Of a stretch of 64,000 nucleotides of DNA, positions 34,259-41,620 are shown one piece after another. Position numbers and translations under genes: made by a program. The stretch comes from Terriglobia bacterium (GTDB lineage Bacteria; Acidobacteriota; Terriglobia; Bryobacterales; Bryobacteraceae). The notes beneath the pieces are model-generated. The model was not told the DNA's origin. It did not search any database and saw only the letters and a list, made by a program, of their open reading frames with translations. The stretch covers positions 310,001-374,000 of the forward strand of contig JAJPHN010000006.1 in NCBI GenBank assembly GCA_021325235.1, given 5' to 3'. Position 1 is the first letter of the stretch; each line of letters begins with the position of its first letter.

Positions 34259-35083
34259 ATGGCGAAAAAGAAGGATCCAAGCATCACTTACCTGAACAAG
34301 TTCGGCTACAACGTGGTCAAGCTGCCGCGGGTTGGCATCGAGCCGATGGACGTGGTCGGGAAAGATGAGACTACACAGTGGCTCGGGCCGCTGCGCAAAG
34401 CCTGGCAGAGCGCGGCGCCCGAACCGCAATTGTCCGGCCCCAATCCAGCCACCCACATCGAGGGTCAGCAGACGGACAAACTTGACCTTCAGTTCGGGAT
34501 ACACATTTTGGCGAACGCACTAAGTGCGTTCGGCGCGAGCATGCCTTCGCTCGATTTCGCTTATCAGCGAGCGCGCAGCATCGCCTTTTCTTTCTCGAAC
34601 GTGACGTCGACCTCGGTTGCCCCCTTTGACGCCGGCAATTACCTCGCAAAAGGAACGCTGAAGACCGACAACCCGGTCGTCGAACACTACTTTCGCAGCC
34701 CCGAAGCCGAAGCCTACTTGCTGGTGGATGTTTTGAAGTCGGACACAATTACTGTGACGGCTACCGACGAGCACGGCTTCGGTGTCGACCTGGATATTCC
34801 CGCTATCCAAAACGTTCTTGGCGCGAAGGTCGGAGTGAAGCCGAGCGCAACGAGCAAAGGCACGGTCAGCTATACCGGGCCGCAGGCGGTTTCGTTCGCC
34901 TTTGTGGCAAATGCCATTGAATTTGACGGGACCAAATGGTCGATGCACGGCATAACGCCCGATGGCGACCACGCGTTCGGCTTGCAGGGCGATTCCACCA
35001 GTGCGGGCGCCGCGCTGGCTGTGGCGGAGCCGGAGGCTGTCATTCTTTCCAGTTCTTGTCTGTTACGTCTTTCCGAAGCATAA
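34259..35083 (+). CDS. Bacterial gasdermin-like pore-forming protein
   Basis: 274 residues, the size of bacterial gasdermins. It begins with the family-like N-terminal segment YLNKFGYNVVKLPRVGIEP and continues with the expected body: LGPLRKAW, GQQTDKLDLQFGIHILANAL, ALGA-like AFGASMP, AFSFSNV, TSVAPFDAGNYLAKG, VDLDIPAIQNVLGAKV and VSYTGPQAVSFAFVANAIEF. After about residue 230 is a Gly/Asp/Ser-rich loop (HGITPDGDHAFGLQGDST) and a hydrophobic C-terminal tail that would act as the inhibitory peptide. In this family proteolysis in that loop releases a membrane-pore form and kills the cell. There is no Cys near the N-terminus, where several studied members are palmitoylated; the only Cys is in the tail. 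Two proteases follow in the operon. The family call rests on remembered sequence patterns. Confidence 0.8.
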   Translation: MAKKKDPSITYLNKFGYNVVKLPRVGIEPMDVVGKDETTQWLGPLRKAWQSAAPEPQLSGPNPATHIEGQQTDKLDLQFGIHILANALSAFGASMPSLDFAYQRARSIAFSFSNVTSTSVAPFDAGNYLAKGTLKTDNPVVEHYFRSPEAEAYLLVDVLKSDTITVTATDEHGFGVDLDIPAIQNVLGAKVGVKPSATSKGTVSYTGPQAVSFAFVANAIEFDGTKWSMHGITPDGDHAFGLQGDSTSAGAALAVAEPEAVILSSSCLLRLSEA

Positions 35084-35127
35084 GAGACCGCCGTTTACGC
35101 AACAAGAGGATAGAGGTGTCATTCGCG

Positions 35128-38100
35128 ATGCAAACGTCCGATGAGCGGCATCTGCTTCTTCGAGTGCGGGTACCGGACGAATTGCCAGCGGCGGATGGCA
35201 ATCTCTCGCGGCTAACGGTTGAGGTCGAGGCGCAGGTTGACCGCTCCTCCATTTATCCGGGTGGGCGAGTGGATATCAACCTGGATGCATTGCGAAGAGT
35301 CGAACTGCAGGAAGATGATCCGGACGGCAAACCGCAGAATCAATACGGCTGCCTGCTCGCGCAAAGCCTGACCGCCAGGCTGCCTTTGCAAGCAGCTTTG
35401 GCCACCCTCTCTCGCTCGAACAACGTGCGGGTGCAACTGCTGCTCGAGCCGGCCGGCTACCCGCTCAGTCTGCTCCGCTGGGAGCGGCTCCAGTTCTCGC
35501 AACTATCCGAGCTCCCCCTCAGCTGCGATATTCAAACGCCTTTTTCCCGCTTCGCCTCTGTGAATCGCGAAGAAATCGCCCCTCCGGCAGATACTGACTT
35601 CCACTTATTGGCATTTGTTGCAAATCCGTTGAACAATCCGGGATTCGCCCAGATCTCGGCCTCGGCGGAAATCAACGCGCTGGTAGGGGCCTGCACCCAG
35701 CTTCTTCAGAGTGGCTGGATGAGGCTTACGGTATTACCCGGCCAGCAAGGGCTTGACCAGGCCACCCTTAAACGCTGCGCAGATCTCAATATCAACGTCC
35801 TCTCGGGACCGTCTACGATCGAGCGGGTGAGCCAGCATCTTGCCGGTCCGGACAATGTGAGCGGCCTTCACGTGGTCGCGCATGGCGCTTTCTACCAAGA
35901 CAGCTTTCATCTCTTCCTGGAAGGAGAGGAAGGAGATCTCGCGCCGGCACCCGAGGACAAACTCTTGCACGAGTGGCAGCTCAAGAACACGCGAATGATC
36001 TATCTGCAATCCTGCCAGAGCGCGGTCGACGGGCGCGATCCGCGCCCGCATGTCGGCAGTTTCATGCAGCATTTGGTGGAGTGCGGCGTGCCCGGCGTGG
36101 TCGCCATGCAGGACTTCATCCGCACCGATGATGCCGGCAAATTTTGCAGCGCCTTCTACACATCCCTGGCGCGCGACGGCAGCGCCGACCGAGCCGTTAA
36201 TGCCGGGCGTTTCGCCATCGCCAACGACGGCTCGGCGCGCTGGTCAATACCCGCTTTTGCCACTCGCCTGTCAGATGGTTCGGTCTGGAAACAGTCCGCC
36301 GTGCGTTTTGCGAAGGAAAAGCTGCGGCAGAGAATTACTGCGTCCCGCAACGCGCGCCACATCACGGCACTCCCTCTCGACGTGATTTCGGTACCGCAAT
36401 CGTCTCTGACGCTCGTTGCACCGAAGGGAGCGGACGAATTTGCCACTCTACCGGCGCAGTCGACGCTGAAAGTGGATGCCGAGAAGGCATTGCGGGCGTC
36501 GCTTGAACCAGAGGGAAGAGTATTCACGGCGCTTATCGGCAAACGTGGCCGCGACAAACGGCAGCTGCTCGAAAGTCTGTATCTGGCCGCTACCCAGCAC
36601 GAATTGCGCGCCGCTGCGAGCGACCGTCTTTGCCTCGTGCTACGTTTATCCGATCTCTCCCATCCCGGATACGACGGAGAAGACCTCGCCATCGCGCGCG
36701 CCGTCGCCGCGTATTTTGAGGATCTCACCGGGGTCACGCTCGATGTACAGGATCTGACCAAGCAATTCGAGCAGAAAGCCTGCGCCTTTCTGATTCACGG
36801 CGACGATACCTTCGGCGACGTGGTGCGCAATGGCCTCCGTGTTCTGGAAAACTTCGCCGGCACTGACGCCAAGAGTAAACACCGCTTCGTCCTTACGCTC
36901 GATGAAAACCAGCTCCGTGTTCGCGATCTTCCCGGTATTCGTGAAGAGAAGGAGGATAATCCCGAAACCGTCGATACGCAGTGCCTCATCATCCAGCCCA
37001 TGCGTCCGGAACGCATCCGCCAGTTCCTGAGCGATCCGGGAAATGCGAAAGGCAGCCCCGAGCGCGATCTGCTCGAGGAACTCGAAAAGAACGCGCTCTT
37101 CGATTTGGCAGAAGTTCCGTGGCTGCTGCGCGAGATGCTGGGCCTCGCGCGCCGCAAAAGTCTGCGCCCCTCGCGCGCGAAAATTATCGGGCGCATTATC
37201 AACGACGATATTTCGCGCTACAAAGGATCGGCCACCTCGGCGGTTAGGCTGCGCGGCACGCTACAACGCTTTGCCTGGGAGGCGCTCACTCATCGCAACT
37301 CCTGCCTGCCCGGCGCGGAGGCGTTCGATATCCTGCAAAAGCTGCGCGGCAATCGCGACTATCCTCTTTCCAATTTTCTCTCCGACATCATCGAATCGTG
37401 TAATGTGCTGGCCTATATCGGCGAAGACGGAATTGGATTCAATTACCCGGGTTTTCGCGCGTTTTGCGCCGCCGAATACCTGTTAAATCTTCCTGAAGAG
37501 CAACGCACCTTTCACCTCGAAGAGATCACCGCACAACTTGGCCGGCAGTCGCGCGCGAATCTCTGGTGCGAGACGCTCTACATCCTCGCCGGATTATGGA
37601 AGGAAACCACCCGGCTGCTGCGCATGATTCTTTCGGGCAGCCTTCTGTATCAGGGCGATCAGCTTTTCATTGCCGTCCGCTGTCTGCAGGAAGCCCGGCT
37701 CAGCTTTCTCAAAGACGCTCCTCGGAGCGACAGTCGTATTGTGCAGTCGATCGTGGGCTCGCTGCTGCAGCAGATCAGTCCGATCGGGCTGCGGTCGGTT
37801 ACAAGCCGGATCAAAGCGATCGATCACCTTGGCCCCCTGCGTGAGCCCTGCGCTCTCGATCCACTACTTTCGCTGGTGGTCGATTGTGTACGGCCCGGCC
37901 GAGGCGGCTTGATGTGCTTCGACTACTCCGCTGTGCGGCTGGCCGCCATGAAGGCCTTGCGTTACGTCGCCGCCGAGGAGACCCAGAAGGCGCTCGCGAG
38001 CCGTTGCAAATGGGCCGACATGCCCCAATTGGCGAGAGTTGTTGAGGCCTGGTTCAAGAACGACTGCAGCGCCTTACAAAAACTGCTCGACGAAGAAAAA

Positions 38101-38736
38101 GATCCGGTTTCGGCCATAGCCGCCCTCGCCCTCGGTCTCTCACTCGATGCTTCGGCGTATCCGGCCCTGAAGAAAGCATTCATCCGGGCCGATATTTCCG
38201 TCGATACGCGCTGGGCGGTCACCGACTCTCTGATCGAACTCGCCCATGAGGATCTGGAAAACTTCGTCCGCAGCTGTATAACAGACGGCGTTGGCGACAA
38301 AGAAATGCTGGCGCACATGGCCGGCAAGCTTGGTAAAGCGGCCGAAGGATCGCCGGAATGGCAGTTCCTGCAGAACAACCTCAAGCAGGGCGAAGATCGT
38401 CTTGCCGGGCGGTCGCTTCAGGCGTTGGCGGAATTGTCAGCGCGCGATATCATCCCGACTTGCCATAGCTGGCTCGATCGGCAGGAATCACACCTTGCCT
38501 ACTTCGCGATGCAAGCCCTGCGCCTGATCGGCCGGCACGAGTCTCTGAAAAAAATAGAAGATCTGCGCTGGGATCCGCAGCGCAATGACACGTCGCGCAT
38601 CATCTTCCTCGACAGCGTCCGGCTCGAGGTTTACGAAAGCATCTATTGGAGGCTCGTAGGCGGTCTTTCACGCGAAACTATGGCCCTTCCTGATACGGAC
38701 GAACCGAAACCCAAACCCACAGGAGCATCCACCTAA
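35128..38736 (+). CDS. CHAT protease fused to a degenerate NACHT-like module and HEAT-like repeats
   Basis: 1202 residues from the ATG at 35128; GTG at 35116 (AGAGG six bases upstream) is an equal alternative. Residues about 1-390 are a CHAT caspase-like peptidase with YPLSLLRWERL, catalytic His252 in HVVAHGAF and Cys296 in YLQSCQSA. Residues about 450-830 resemble a NACHT/STAND NTPase: P-loop-like GKRGRDKR (471-478), strand FLIHGDD (about 554-560), and the distal helices NYPGFRAFCAAEYLL. The Walker motifs are degenerate. The C-terminal 350 residues are Ala/Leu-rich helical repeats of HEAT type (SIAALALGLSLDAS-like units), likely the sensor. By analogy with gasdermin operons it should sense a trigger and cleave the gasdermin. 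An in-frame extension to 34936 overlaps the gasdermin gene and is rejected. Confidence 0.8.
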   Translation: MQTSDERHLLLRVRVPDELPAADGNLSRLTVEVEAQVDRSSIYPGGRVDINLDALRRVELQEDDPDGKPQNQYGCLLAQSLTARLPLQAALATLSRSNNVRVQLLLEPAGYPLSLLRWERLQFSQLSELPLSCDIQTPFSRFASVNREEIAPPADTDFHLLAFVANPLNNPGFAQISASAEINALVGACTQLLQSGWMRLTVLPGQQGLDQATLKRCADLNINVLSGPSTIERVSQHLAGPDNVSGLHVVAHGAFYQDSFHLFLEGEEGDLAPAPEDKLLHEWQLKNTRMIYLQSCQSAVDGRDPRPHVGSFMQHLVECGVPGVVAMQDFIRTDDAGKFCSAFYTSLARDGSADRAVNAGRFAIANDGSARWSIPAFATRLSDGSVWKQSAVRFAKEKLRQRITASRNARHITALPLDVISVPQSSLTLVAPKGADEFATLPAQSTLKVDAEKALRASLEPEGRVFTALIGKRGRDKRQLLESLYLAATQHELRAAASDRLCLVLRLSDLSHPGYDGEDLAIARAVAAYFEDLTGVTLDVQDLTKQFEQKACAFLIHGDDTFGDVVRNGLRVLENFAGTDAKSKHRFVLTLDENQLRVRDLPGIREEKEDNPETVDTQCLIIQPMRPERIRQFLSDPGNAKGSPERDLLEELEKNALFDLAEVPWLLREMLGLARRKSLRPSRAKIIGRIINDDISRYKGSATSAVRLRGTLQRFAWEALTHRNSCLPGAEAFDILQKLRGNRDYPLSNFLSDIIESCNVLAYIGEDGIGFNYPGFRAFCAAEYLLNLPEEQRTFHLEEITAQLGRQSRANLWCETLYILAGLWKETTRLLRMILSGSLLYQGDQLFIAVRCLQEARLSFLKDAPRSDSRIVQSIVGSLLQQISPIGLRSVTSRIKAIDHLGPLREPCALDPLLSLVVDCVRPGRGGLMCFDYSAVRLAAMKALRYVAAEETQKALASRCKWADMPQLARVVEAWFKNDCSALQKLLDEEKDPVSAIAALALGLSLDASAYPALKKAFIRADISVDTRWAVTDSLIELAHEDLENFVRSCITDGVGDKEMLAHMAGKLGKAAEGSPEWQFLQNNLKQGEDRLAGRSLQALAELSARDIIPTCHSWLDRQESHLAYFAMQALRLIGRHESLKKIEDLRWDPQRNDTSRIIFLDSVRLEVYESIYWRLVGGLSRETMALPDTDEPKPKPTGAST

Positions 38737-38737
38737 A

Positions 38738-41620
38738 ATGCCTTTTCGCACGGTACCCGCAACTTCCACCCGCTACGCACTGGTGGCATTCGACAAGAGC
38801 GGCGCGGAGCGTAACGACGACGGCGACGGCGACCACGGGCTGCTAAGCAGCAGACTGTTAGCGGAAACCAATAACAATCCGCCGTCGGACATCTTCTTGT
38901 TCAGTCATGGATGGCGCGGAGATGTGGCGGCCGCGATCGACCAATACGATCGCTGGATCGGTGCTATGAACCGGCTCAACACCGGTATTGCGAGGATGGG
39001 GCCGGGCTTTCGGCCGGCATGGATCGGCATCCATTGGCCGAGCGAGCCGTGGGGCGAGGAGGAGTTGCAGCCGGTCGCTGCGTTCGCTGTTTCCGGTAAT
39101 GGAGCAGGTGTTCCGCAGGTCGACCTGCAAGAGAAGTATCTTGCGCGTCTTGGCCTGGAGGACTCGGCCGAGGCCCGCTCTCTGCTTGACATCATCTTCG
39201 AAACAAACCGAGTCAATGCGGCGGCACGCAAACTTCCCGAAGAAACAGCTAGCGCCTACAAACAGCTGGCCGCCTTACTTGGCTTTGGCCCGGGAAACGT
39301 CGCTTCCGAACCCGGCGCGGATCACACTACCTTCGACCCGCAGCAAGCCTTCGACGCGCTGAAGACCAACGCGGCTTTCGGCGGTGCCCTGCTTGGCGGA
39401 GTGCTGGCACCTTTGCGAACACTCTCGTTCTGGACCATGAAGCGCCGCGCTCGCTCGGTCGGGGAGAGCGGAGTCAATGGATTAGTGGCGCAGCTACAGG
39501 CGGCCGCACCGCAGGCCCGGCTGCATTTGATGGGTCATAGCTTTGGCTGCATCGTGATGTCGTCCGTCTGCGGCGGTCTGAACGGTACCTCCGCACTCCC
39601 TCGGCCCATCGATTCGCTCGCTCTCATCCAGGGAGCGCTCTCGTTATGGGCCTATGCGGGTAAGATCCCGTCTACCGGCGGCACAGGCTATTTCAATGCC
39701 ATGCTGCGCCGTCCAGCCGTGCGCGGGCCCATTATCACTACGCAGTCCATTCACGACACTGCCGTCGGCGTGATCTATCCCAAAGCGGTCGGGCTGGTAC
39801 TGCAGAACCCGAACTTCGCTGCTACTGGCGCGCCGCTTCCAAAATGGGGAGCAATCGGCGCTTTCGGAATCCAGGGCGCCGAGAATACGATCGCCACTCC
39901 CATGCTCGATACGGACCATACCTACAATTTCGAGAACGGCTGCATTTACAATGTCGAGGCTAGCCAGTTCATCGAGAAGATGAGCGGCCTCAGCGGCGCG
40001 CATTCCGATATTGACGGTCCGCAGGTGGCGCACGCTTTATGGCAGGCTGCCTGGGCATCGAACCAGGCTGGCACCCAGACCGCGAAGGTCAAAGTAGCTT
40101 CGTTTAGCGTTGGCGCCGGTGATGTCGGACCTACGGTTGCCTCGATGCCCGCACTCTCCGAGCTTGCCGTACAGCCTCGCACAGCTGCCACGCCACCCTC
40201 GTTTGGCGTTCAGGCCGAAACCGGCGCGTATCTTCCCGCCATAAGCGCTGAGGCTCTCCTGCATATCGATCGCGACCCGGCCTCGATCCGGCGCCGCTTG
40301 CCTGCCGGGACGGGTGTGTTTGGTGTTACTGCGAGCGTCGATGCCGGCAATTTGGCGCAAGCCGGCTGGGGCATTATCTTCCCTAAGCATATGCAGAGCG
40401 CCGATGTCGCGGCGGTCGAGAACGCGCTCGAACCGTTGCTCGCTTTGCGCAAATCGCAAGCGGGCGCACGCTTCTGGAAATTCTCCGGAGAGAATGGCTA
40501 CGCTGGTGAGCCGGATGCGGACGAGTGGCTCAGCCAGCACGGCTCCGCATTGAGCATTGTCGACCCGACGCAGGGCGTGCCCTATTACTTGTTGCTGGTC
40601 GGCTCGCCGGACGATATTCCTTTTGAGTTTCAGTACGATCTCGATTCCTTTTTTGCCGTCGGCAGATTGTACTTCGAAACCGCCGAAGAATACGCTGAGT
40701 ACGCCCGGAAGATTGTAGCTTTCGAGACAGCTGACGCACCGCCCAACGGCAAGAACATCGCTCTATTCGTGACTCGCAATCCAGGCGATGCGGCCACCGC
40801 CATGTTGCACGACCTGGTCGGCACCGCGTTTGCGGATGGCGATCCCGGCAACGGGTTTGAACCTCTCGGCCAATCGCAGGGCTATGCGCGAACGAAGTTC
40901 CTTGCCGACAACGCCAGCAAGAATAACCTCGTCTCCCTGTTGTCCGGGAAATCGGAGGCCGGCATTCCCGCGCTTTTGTTTACCGGCTCTCATGGAGTTT
41001 CGTTTTCCCTGAACGACCCCGCGCTGAATCAAAAGCAGGGTGCCATTCTGACTAAGGAGTGGAAAGGGCCGAATACACCCGTATCGCCCGATACGTACCT
41101 GACGGCTGCAGAATTACCCAACGACGCGAATCTGAGCGGAACCATCCATTTCTTCTTTGCCTGTTATAGCGCCGGCTGCCCCGAATTCGACACGTATTCT
41201 TACCAGGGTGATAAACCGGCGCCGCTTGCCCGGGCGGCTATCATCGCGCGTCTTCCACAACGTATCCTCCTCGCCGGCGCTCAGGCCGTAATCGGCCATA
41301 TCGACCGTGCGTGGGCCTATGGGTTTCAGTCCGCAGCCGGAACCACGACGCGCCAGAATCTGGCTGATCCGCTGGTGCGAATATTGCGCGGCGACCGCGT
41401 CGGCCATGCGCTCGATTCCTTCAACCAGCGCTGGAGCGTCGCAAGCAACGCGCTGCTCAAGATGAGAGCGCAGCGCGATGGCAATCCGGCCAGCGTTTCC
41501 GAGGAGAAGCTAACAAATAAGTGGATCGAGCGGGATGACGCGCGAAACTACATCATCTTAGGCGATCCCGCCGCCCGTGTCGCAATAGCCAGATCAGACG
41601 AGCAAGGGACAGCGAGGTAG
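38738..41620 (+). CDS. Lipase-like alpha/beta-hydrolase fused to a gingipain (C25)-like peptidase
   Basis: 960 residues; ATG one base after the previous stop TAA, with AGGAG 12 bases upstream. The N-terminal half (about 1-445) is an alpha/beta-hydrolase: oxyanion segment IFLFSHGWRG, nucleophile elbow GHSFG (Ser268) and a probable catalytic His422 in GAHSD. The C-terminal half (about 560-950) has gingipain-like order: YLLLVGSPDDIPFEFQYDLD, LLFTGSHG with His752, FFACYSAGCP with Cys809, LAGAQAVIGHIDRAW and NYIILGDPAARV. So it joins a possible lipase or esterase with a second clan-CD cysteine peptidase. No signal peptide or membrane segment is seen. It may mature or regulate the gasdermin or CHAT protein, or attack host membranes directly. 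Function of the fusion is inference. Confidence 0.75.
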   Translation: MPFRTVPATSTRYALVAFDKSGAERNDDGDGDHGLLSSRLLAETNNNPPSDIFLFSHGWRGDVAAAIDQYDRWIGAMNRLNTGIARMGPGFRPAWIGIHWPSEPWGEEELQPVAAFAVSGNGAGVPQVDLQEKYLARLGLEDSAEARSLLDIIFETNRVNAAARKLPEETASAYKQLAALLGFGPGNVASEPGADHTTFDPQQAFDALKTNAAFGGALLGGVLAPLRTLSFWTMKRRARSVGESGVNGLVAQLQAAAPQARLHLMGHSFGCIVMSSVCGGLNGTSALPRPIDSLALIQGALSLWAYAGKIPSTGGTGYFNAMLRRPAVRGPIITTQSIHDTAVGVIYPKAVGLVLQNPNFAATGAPLPKWGAIGAFGIQGAENTIATPMLDTDHTYNFENGCIYNVEASQFIEKMSGLSGAHSDIDGPQVAHALWQAAWASNQAGTQTAKVKVASFSVGAGDVGPTVASMPALSELAVQPRTAATPPSFGVQAETGAYLPAISAEALLHIDRDPASIRRRLPAGTGVFGVTASVDAGNLAQAGWGIIFPKHMQSADVAAVENALEPLLALRKSQAGARFWKFSGENGYAGEPDADEWLSQHGSALSIVDPTQGVPYYLLLVGSPDDIPFEFQYDLDSFFAVGRLYFETAEEYAEYARKIVAFETADAPPNGKNIALFVTRNPGDAATAMLHDLVGTAFADGDPGNGFEPLGQSQGYARTKFLADNASKNNLVSLLSGKSEAGIPALLFTGSHGVSFSLNDPALNQKQGAILTKEWKGPNTPVSPDTYLTAAELPNDANLSGTIHFFFACYSAGCPEFDTYSYQGDKPAPLARAAIIARLPQRILLAGAQAVIGHIDRAWAYGFQSAAGTTTRQNLADPLVRILRGDRVGHALDSFNQRWSVASNALLKMRAQRDGNPASVSEEKLTNKWIERDDARNYIILGDPAARVAIARSDEQGTAR

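Follow-up and report, generated by a model that had tools for sequence, protein, structure and literature searches.

Which genes form the conserved unit of a bacterial gasdermin cassette, and which of its proteases would act on which effector? The question is raised by three adjacent genes on the + strand of a 64,000-nt stretch of a Terriglobia bacterium (contig JAJPHN010000006.1, positions 310,001 to 374,000; hereafter the window), which belongs to a 5.03 Mb draft genome. They encode a bacterial gasdermin (34259-35083; 274 aa), a CHAT-NACHT-HEAT protein (35128-38736; 1202 aa) and an alpha/beta-hydrolase fused to a C25 peptidase (38738-41620; 960 aa). The intergenic gaps of 44 and 1 bases agree with the one-strand operon described in the original prediction, which was made from the letters of the window and placed gasdermin at the center of the cassette. 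We find that the set is real and conserved, and that it probably represents a gasdermin/caspase-type death system with a probable second effector family, the hydrolase.

The claim that these genes are conserved as neighbors was borne out by a genome survey. All four parts occur together in three other genomes (loci L058, L073, and L076), where hydrolase and C25 are separate genes. L058, from a Bryobacterales metagenome-assembled genome (MAG), and L073 (genome G684) have the order of the window, i.e., gasdermin, CHAT-NACHT-HEAT, hydrolase, and C25; L076 (G495) carries gasdermin at the 3' end. Five further loci (L115, L116, L117, L118, and L041) harbor the trio of CHAT-NACHT-HEAT, hydrolase, and C25 with no gasdermin nearby. 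Gasdermin matches were obtained in 10 of 399 genomes, which include none of the four class genomes with such a trio (G687, G732, G480, and G592); likewise, the phylum search matched gasdermin in 4 of 396 genomes, G275, the source of L041, not being one of them. Because the trio is found without gasdermin in five loci, the trio, rather than gasdermin, is the conserved core, and gasdermin the least constant member of the set. With the NACHT-HEAT part alone as query, 6 of 369 genomes gave a total of seven loci, all but one of which are trio loci. Searches with the whole fusion protein chose loci for hydrolase or C25; independent counts come from the class searches with gasdermin and with the hydrolase profile and from the search with the NACHT-HEAT part. 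Six of the 24 plasmid records matching the fusion protein were read, and plasmid matches to gasdermin (one record) and CHAT-NACHT-HEAT (two records) were left out.

Co-variation points in the same direction. Across nine loci, the pairwise distances of each trio protein correlate with those of the other two (r 0.79-0.84; p 0.0005, the lowest value that 2000 permutations allow). A tree of the concatenated trio groups L058, which has gasdermin, with L116, which lacks it, and likewise L073 (gasdermin present) with L115 (absent). Both groupings have support 100, whereas support at the deeper nodes is weak (27 and 50). Among the loci with all four parts, four in number, the trio topology is rejected by the gasdermin alignment (approximately unbiased [AU] p 0.014) and the gasdermin topology by the concatenated trio (AU p 0.0009). 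Taken singly, CHAT-NACHT-HEAT and hydrolase also reject the gasdermin topology; C25 alone is indecisive. The trio thus varies together as a unit. The conflict between the gasdermin and trio trees indicates repeated gain, loss, or exchange of gasdermin, which looks like a plug-in effector.

Three libraries identify the first gene product as a bacterial gasdermin: the curated profile NF051890 (188.8 bits; cut-off 100), PADLOC bGSDM (4.2e-65), and the structures 7n51 and 8sl0 (about 2e-43). Its length resembles that of solved gasdermin chains (266 and 268 aa). Among five named loci, its closest relative is that of the Bryobacterales MAG (63% identical); the other loci in the list are from Acidobacteriota. 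The predicted identity therefore stands. An N-terminal Cys is absent: the protein begins MAKKKD, and its sole Cys lies near the C-terminus. A Cys near the start is present in five of 12 aligned gasdermins (L073, L076, L075, L039, and L061) and absent from those of the window and L058. The window copy differs here from most bacterial gasdermins, since palmitoylation at an N-terminal Cys is reported for most, not all, of them in the excerpted text of PMC9612521. According to the same excerpts, approximately 20 C-terminal residues keep gasdermin inactive, and the cut comes after Leu or Arg. Applying this rule together with a comparison of tails, we presume that the last 21 residues (254-274; 35018-35080) form the inhibitory tail, with Leu253, 21 residues before the end, as a candidate cleavage point. 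Gingipain-like cutting at Arg or Lys is unlikely for this gasdermin because residues 227-269 contain zero Lys or Arg.

The second protein is the presumed sensor and initiator protease, and its predicted architecture held in part. The CHAT domain (aa 78-368; 35359-36231) scores 61.9 bits against Pfam CHAT (cut-off 24), with His252 (35881-35883) and Cys296 (36013-36015) in place and the dyad present in 38 of 38 aligned rows. The best HEAT repeat stretch by Pfam spans aa 1084-1153 (38377-38586). The central region is NACHT-like by descent only: Pfam NACHT matches two of five members of the CHAT-NACHT-HEAT alignment (A4), not the window protein, and alignment places a degenerate P-loop, GKRGRDKRQ, at aa 471-479 (36538-36564). 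Six of nine CHAT-NACHT-HEAT proteins (L073, L076, L115, L116, L117, and L118) retain the pattern G-x-R-G-x-x-K-[ST], the L073 and L115 relatives with a full Walker A; in the window, L058, and L041 the pattern is broken. In PADLOC, the window protein touches SAVED_CHAT at E 0.0009.

The third protein comprises an alpha/beta-hydrolase domain (aa 1-440; 38738-40057), an in-frame linker (aa 441-482; 40058-40183), and a gingipain-type C25 peptidase (aa 483-953; 40184-41596). The hydrolase half was confirmed by its fold and its triad of Ser268 (39539-39541), Asp340 (39755-39757), and His422 (40001-40003); an insert occupies residues 102-233. For the other half, a Pfam C25 match above cut-off, the dyad of His752 (40991-40993) and Cys809 (41162-41164), and a gingipain fold bear out the predicted clan-CD nature; CHAT and separase gave poorer fold matches than C25 and were rejected as its identity. 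The halves were folded separately, and full-length alignments of the fusion protein misplaced C25 rows. Fold matches of the model hint at a possible lipid-hydrolyzing enzyme. PADLOC returned no match for the window hydrolase-C25 protein. As for the lipase/C25 fusion envisaged as a third component, the pairing is conserved and the fusion is not, as the two are fused in none of the 34 other hydrolase loci read.

The hydrolase nevertheless keeps constant company. Of the 35 loci read, 15 carry C25 and 17 an adjacent S8 subtilase. In 14 of the 15 the C25 gene is close by; in L004, also counted, a transposase lies between and the distance is 7.7 kb. C25 is matched only distantly in L006 (E about 2e-31) and L050 (about 2e-30). 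All nine S8 genes tested match PF00082 (Pfam, E <= 5.3e-40). With the hydrolase profile alone, a class-wide search matched 33 genomes, of which 21 loci were read, weaker and further matches being left out; eight had C25 and 13 had S8. Proteases neighbor the hydrolase in at least four phyla (Acidobacteriota, as here; Sinorhizobium and Rhizobium, on plasmids; Nostoc; Rhodococcus), and by its gene neighborhoods this is a protease-paired family. The fetched stretches around the S8-hydrolase pairs of L120-L132, L054, L055, L005, and L007 contained no CHAT, C25, or gasdermin, which makes these pairs a candidate stand-alone system. At E <= 0.01, PADLOC gave no match for the CHAT-NACHT-HEAT, hydrolase, and C25 proteins of L058 or the hydrolase of L122, and matched the S8 of L122 to 'subtilase' at 2.6e-55. 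In L042 (1851-5235), a hydrolase of the C25-type branch adjoins a protein with TerD and TerF-like vWA domains.

Gasdermin and hydrolase share protease partner families. Among 16 distinct gasdermin loci (L039 and L059 represent one contig and were counted once; L038 and L060 come from different genomes, with gasdermins 91% identical, and were counted twice), C25 is present in nine, S8 in one (L061), and a C14 caspase in one (L074). Another, L062, lies at a contig end that truncates its gasdermin and has CHAT with an nSTAND-type ATPase. No hydrolase was seen in five of the nine C25-adjoining loci (L038, L039, L060, L071, and L075), although in L039, a 5.5 kb contig, it could lie beyond. CHAT accompanies eight of the nine, and L071 has a weak CHAT match approximately 7 kb away. 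Within the fetched stretches, a CHAT match accompanies C25 in 13 of the 15 distinct loci where hydrolase is absent; because some of these genomes have as many as 60 CHAT genes, part of this co-occurrence may be chance (the genomes G000 and G495 have four and two, respectively). In the window, CHAT and C25 both share the gene cluster with gasdermin. CHAT, proposed originally as the gasdermin protease, is therefore not favored over C25, which is at least as good a candidate for cutting gasdermin.

Several of these loci show further variations. An S8 subtilase directly follows gasdermin in L061 (3379-5473), like fungal gasdermin-S8 pairs, and in L074 (7505-10410) gasdermin adjoins a protein with a C14 caspase domain that also gives a weak match to a carboxypeptidase-regulatory-like domain. 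L075 (3217-11889) clusters an nSTAND1 ATPase, CHAT, gasdermin, and C25, an unfused counterpart of CHAT-NACHT-HEAT. A 1626 aa protein in L049 (9016-13896) matches both CHAT and C25 profiles and is a possible protease-protease fusion. Ser/Thr kinases with TPR repeats lie beside the gasdermin/C25 genes in L071 (11986-14235) and L075 (12255-14414) by Pfam, and near C25 in L038 and L060, judged there from the sequence start alone. A second, divergently transcribed CHAT-like gene (Pfam CHAT below cut-off) is found upstream of gasdermin in L058 (1-2403) and L038 (11551-14505); the window has none.

The general pattern combines C25 as the second protease and either one effector or two with a sensor-protease, in which CHAT is fused to NACHT-HEAT or, for example in L075, encoded apart from an nSTAND1 ATPase. 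We lean, by a modest degree, toward a programmed-cell-death and most likely anti-phage operon in which a two-protease cascade, responding to a phage trigger, would control two membrane effectors. The HEAT/NACHT part would sense an infection signal and trigger its own CHAT protease, which would release or activate the C25 peptidase as executioner. C25 and/or CHAT would then clip the gasdermin tail, opening pores, and would also clip or unmask the hydrolase, degrading membrane lipids, so that cell death precedes multiplication of the invader. In the window, fusion would produce effector and activator one to one, and cleavage in the 42-residue linker may separate them. By analogy with gasdermin-protease pairs (PMC9612521, excerpts) and protease-unmasked nuclease proenzymes (PMC12799240, excerpts), we infer that proteolysis would release gasdermin and hydrolase alike. 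More tentatively, as a suggestion somewhat short of an even chance, the hydrolase may represent an unrecognized family of protease-activated, membrane-degrading proenzymes, the lipid-hydrolysis counterpart of gasdermin pores, with C25 and S8 interchangeable and deployed either as stand-alone S8 units or in CHAT-NACHT-HEAT cassettes; here, one sensor would fire both pore and lipase.

If true, gasdermin is one interchangeable output among proteolytic death circuits, and a lipase-like proenzyme is a second output, so far unnamed despite its protease neighbors in several phyla. The C25 partner would also put gingipain-type peptidases, otherwise secreted virulence factors, in the role of an intracellular death switch. 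The four-part set and its gasdermin-free sisters make testable which protease cuts which effector in an initiator-executioner cascade and why one cell would hold two membrane-directed effectors.

A number of results weigh against this interpretation. Three of the 35 hydrolase loci (L042, L056, and L057) have no recognized protease, and four of the 16 gasdermin loci (L040, L072, L077, and L078) have none by our own C25, S8, CHAT, and nSTAND profiles; the L078 gasdermin is itself below the curated cut-off and missed by our own profile. The seventh locus found with the NACHT-HEAT query, L140 (8401-12213; G480:C19), is a diverged CHAT-NACHT-HEAT gene standing alone, with no hydrolase, C25, S8, or gasdermin across the 19.5 kb around it. 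In the P-loop of the window protein, Lys is followed by Arg rather than the Ser or Thr of a Walker A motif, so ATP hydrolysis may be lost. Compared by eye, gasdermin tails differ, and no shared cleavage motif was seen among them; gasdermin and C25 distances are uncorrelated (r 0.14, p 0.32; eight loci, L060 left out), giving no sign, at the sequence level, of tight gasdermin-protease co-evolution. Foldseek returned no match to the hydrolase model at E <= 0.001, and the best Z rows stand barely higher than general esterases; a shared fold is not proof of lipase activity. By Pfam, the seven window neighbors of the cassette are metabolic and signaling genes, none of them recognized defense genes. 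Finally, alignments of gasdermin, hydrolase, and C25 found no relatives in viral contigs, nor did tblastn of gasdermin and the hydrolase-C25 protein against phages; a phage-borne origin is thus unsupported.

Alternatively, gasdermin could be cut by CHAT alone, with hydrolase-C25 as a separate module, in which C25 activates only the hydrolase, sharing the sensor and operon. The gasdermin-free trios, the departure of the gasdermin tree from that of the trio, the frequency of CHAT beside C25-adjoining gasdermins, and a fungal gasdermin reportedly activated by a TPR-CHAT protease (PMC12881547, excerpts) would all accord with this arrangement. We nonetheless find it doubtful, as C25 adjoins most gasdermins surveyed, five times with no hydrolase in sight, and the CHAT match of L071 is both weak and remote. 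A developmental or general stress-death program, rather than phage defense, is unlikely on balance: the cassette is patchy, chromosomal in a large contig, and away from recognized defense genes, and Ser/Thr kinases adjoin C25 and gasdermin in some relatives, but this patchiness (none of the four listed same-genus genomes has a gasdermin match) and the independent movement of gasdermin fit an arms race better, and one studied gasdermin operon has a phage-defense role (PMC9612521, excerpts).

The remaining alternatives concern the hydrolase-C25 protein. That the hydrolase is a regulator, e.g., a de-acylase of gasdermin or membrane-anchored proteins, or an inhibitor removed by the protease, seems to us quite improbable, since the window and L058 gasdermins offer no N-terminal Cys to de-acylate and hydrolase persists in gasdermin-free loci. 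The fusion might also be an assembly or sequencing artefact joining adjacent genes; it is seen only in the window, and the two genes overlap in L058 and are 27 bases apart in L073. The single open frame of 960 codons argues against an artefact, which we judge very improbable. The 42-codon linker, though too short to decide, has a G+C by codon position (0.67/0.57/0.62) similar to that of the halves (0.63/0.51/0.70 and 0.62/0.49/0.68).

Relative to known systems, the two-protease cassette resembles the bacterial gasdermin operons of PMC9612521, in whose excerpted text gasdermin has a short C-terminal tail and lies near caspase-fold proteases and NLR-like ATPases; a figure legend there (Fig. 2) lists associated lysozyme and phospholipase genes. 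It differs in its conserved trio with a gingipain-type C25 and a distinct protease-paired hydrolase, gasdermin being optional. Neither CARD nor trypsin domains were among the Pfam matches of the three window proteins. In the VMAP systems of Kaur et al. 2020 (PMC7159879), caspase-superfamily domains have a neighboring alpha/beta-hydrolase with which they probably act; those systems are MoxR-vWA-VMAP, and the words gasdermin, C25, and CHAT are absent from that text. The seven window neighbors belong to families other than MoxR, vWA, and VMAP by Pfam, no profile aimed at these having been run. As in the nuclease-protease pairs of Tuck et al. 2025 (PMC12799240, excerpts), a candidate proenzyme effector moves with its protease between unrelated defense systems; there, the pair is an MBL-fold nuclease and a trypsin-like protease, neither of which is among the Pfam matches of the three window proteins, and here C25 or S8 accompanies an alpha/beta-hydrolase. 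A further parallel comes from gasdermin clusters of fungi (PMC12881547, excerpts), where the gasdermins are under the control of S8 or CHAT proteases, some of which are joined to NLR sensors, and a SesB-like lipase is listed as an NLR effector domain. The excerpts do not mention C25 or describe lipase and gasdermin as one cassette. Each idea thus has a precedent (caspase with hydrolase, PMC7159879; gasdermin with phospholipase genes, PMC9612521), as far as these excerpts go. In open-licence PMC literature, we found no description of the trio, the optional gasdermin, the C25-or-S8 pairing, or the fusion, and no paper that connects C25 to a bacterial gasdermin or S8 to the hydrolase family; primary gasdermin papers lie outside that scope and may contain them. 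The window C25 is only 13-16% identical to the gingipains RgpB/Kgp in the aligned part, and the protein stops right after the catalytic domain, leaving no room for the gingipain Ig-like domain; its setting is presumably intracellular.

The surroundings of the cassette are unexceptional. ARAGORN found no tRNA in the window, and in 2 kb steps the G+C of the region runs from 0.586 to 0.604, matching its surroundings. By Pfam, a CHAD protein, a GFO/IDH oxidoreductase, a nucleoside hydrolase, and a permease lie upstream, and a hybrid histidine kinase, a DUF3011 protein, and aspartyl-protease/TPR proteins lie downstream. A DNA search with the flanking permease gene found matches of 65-71% identity in six of ten relatives.

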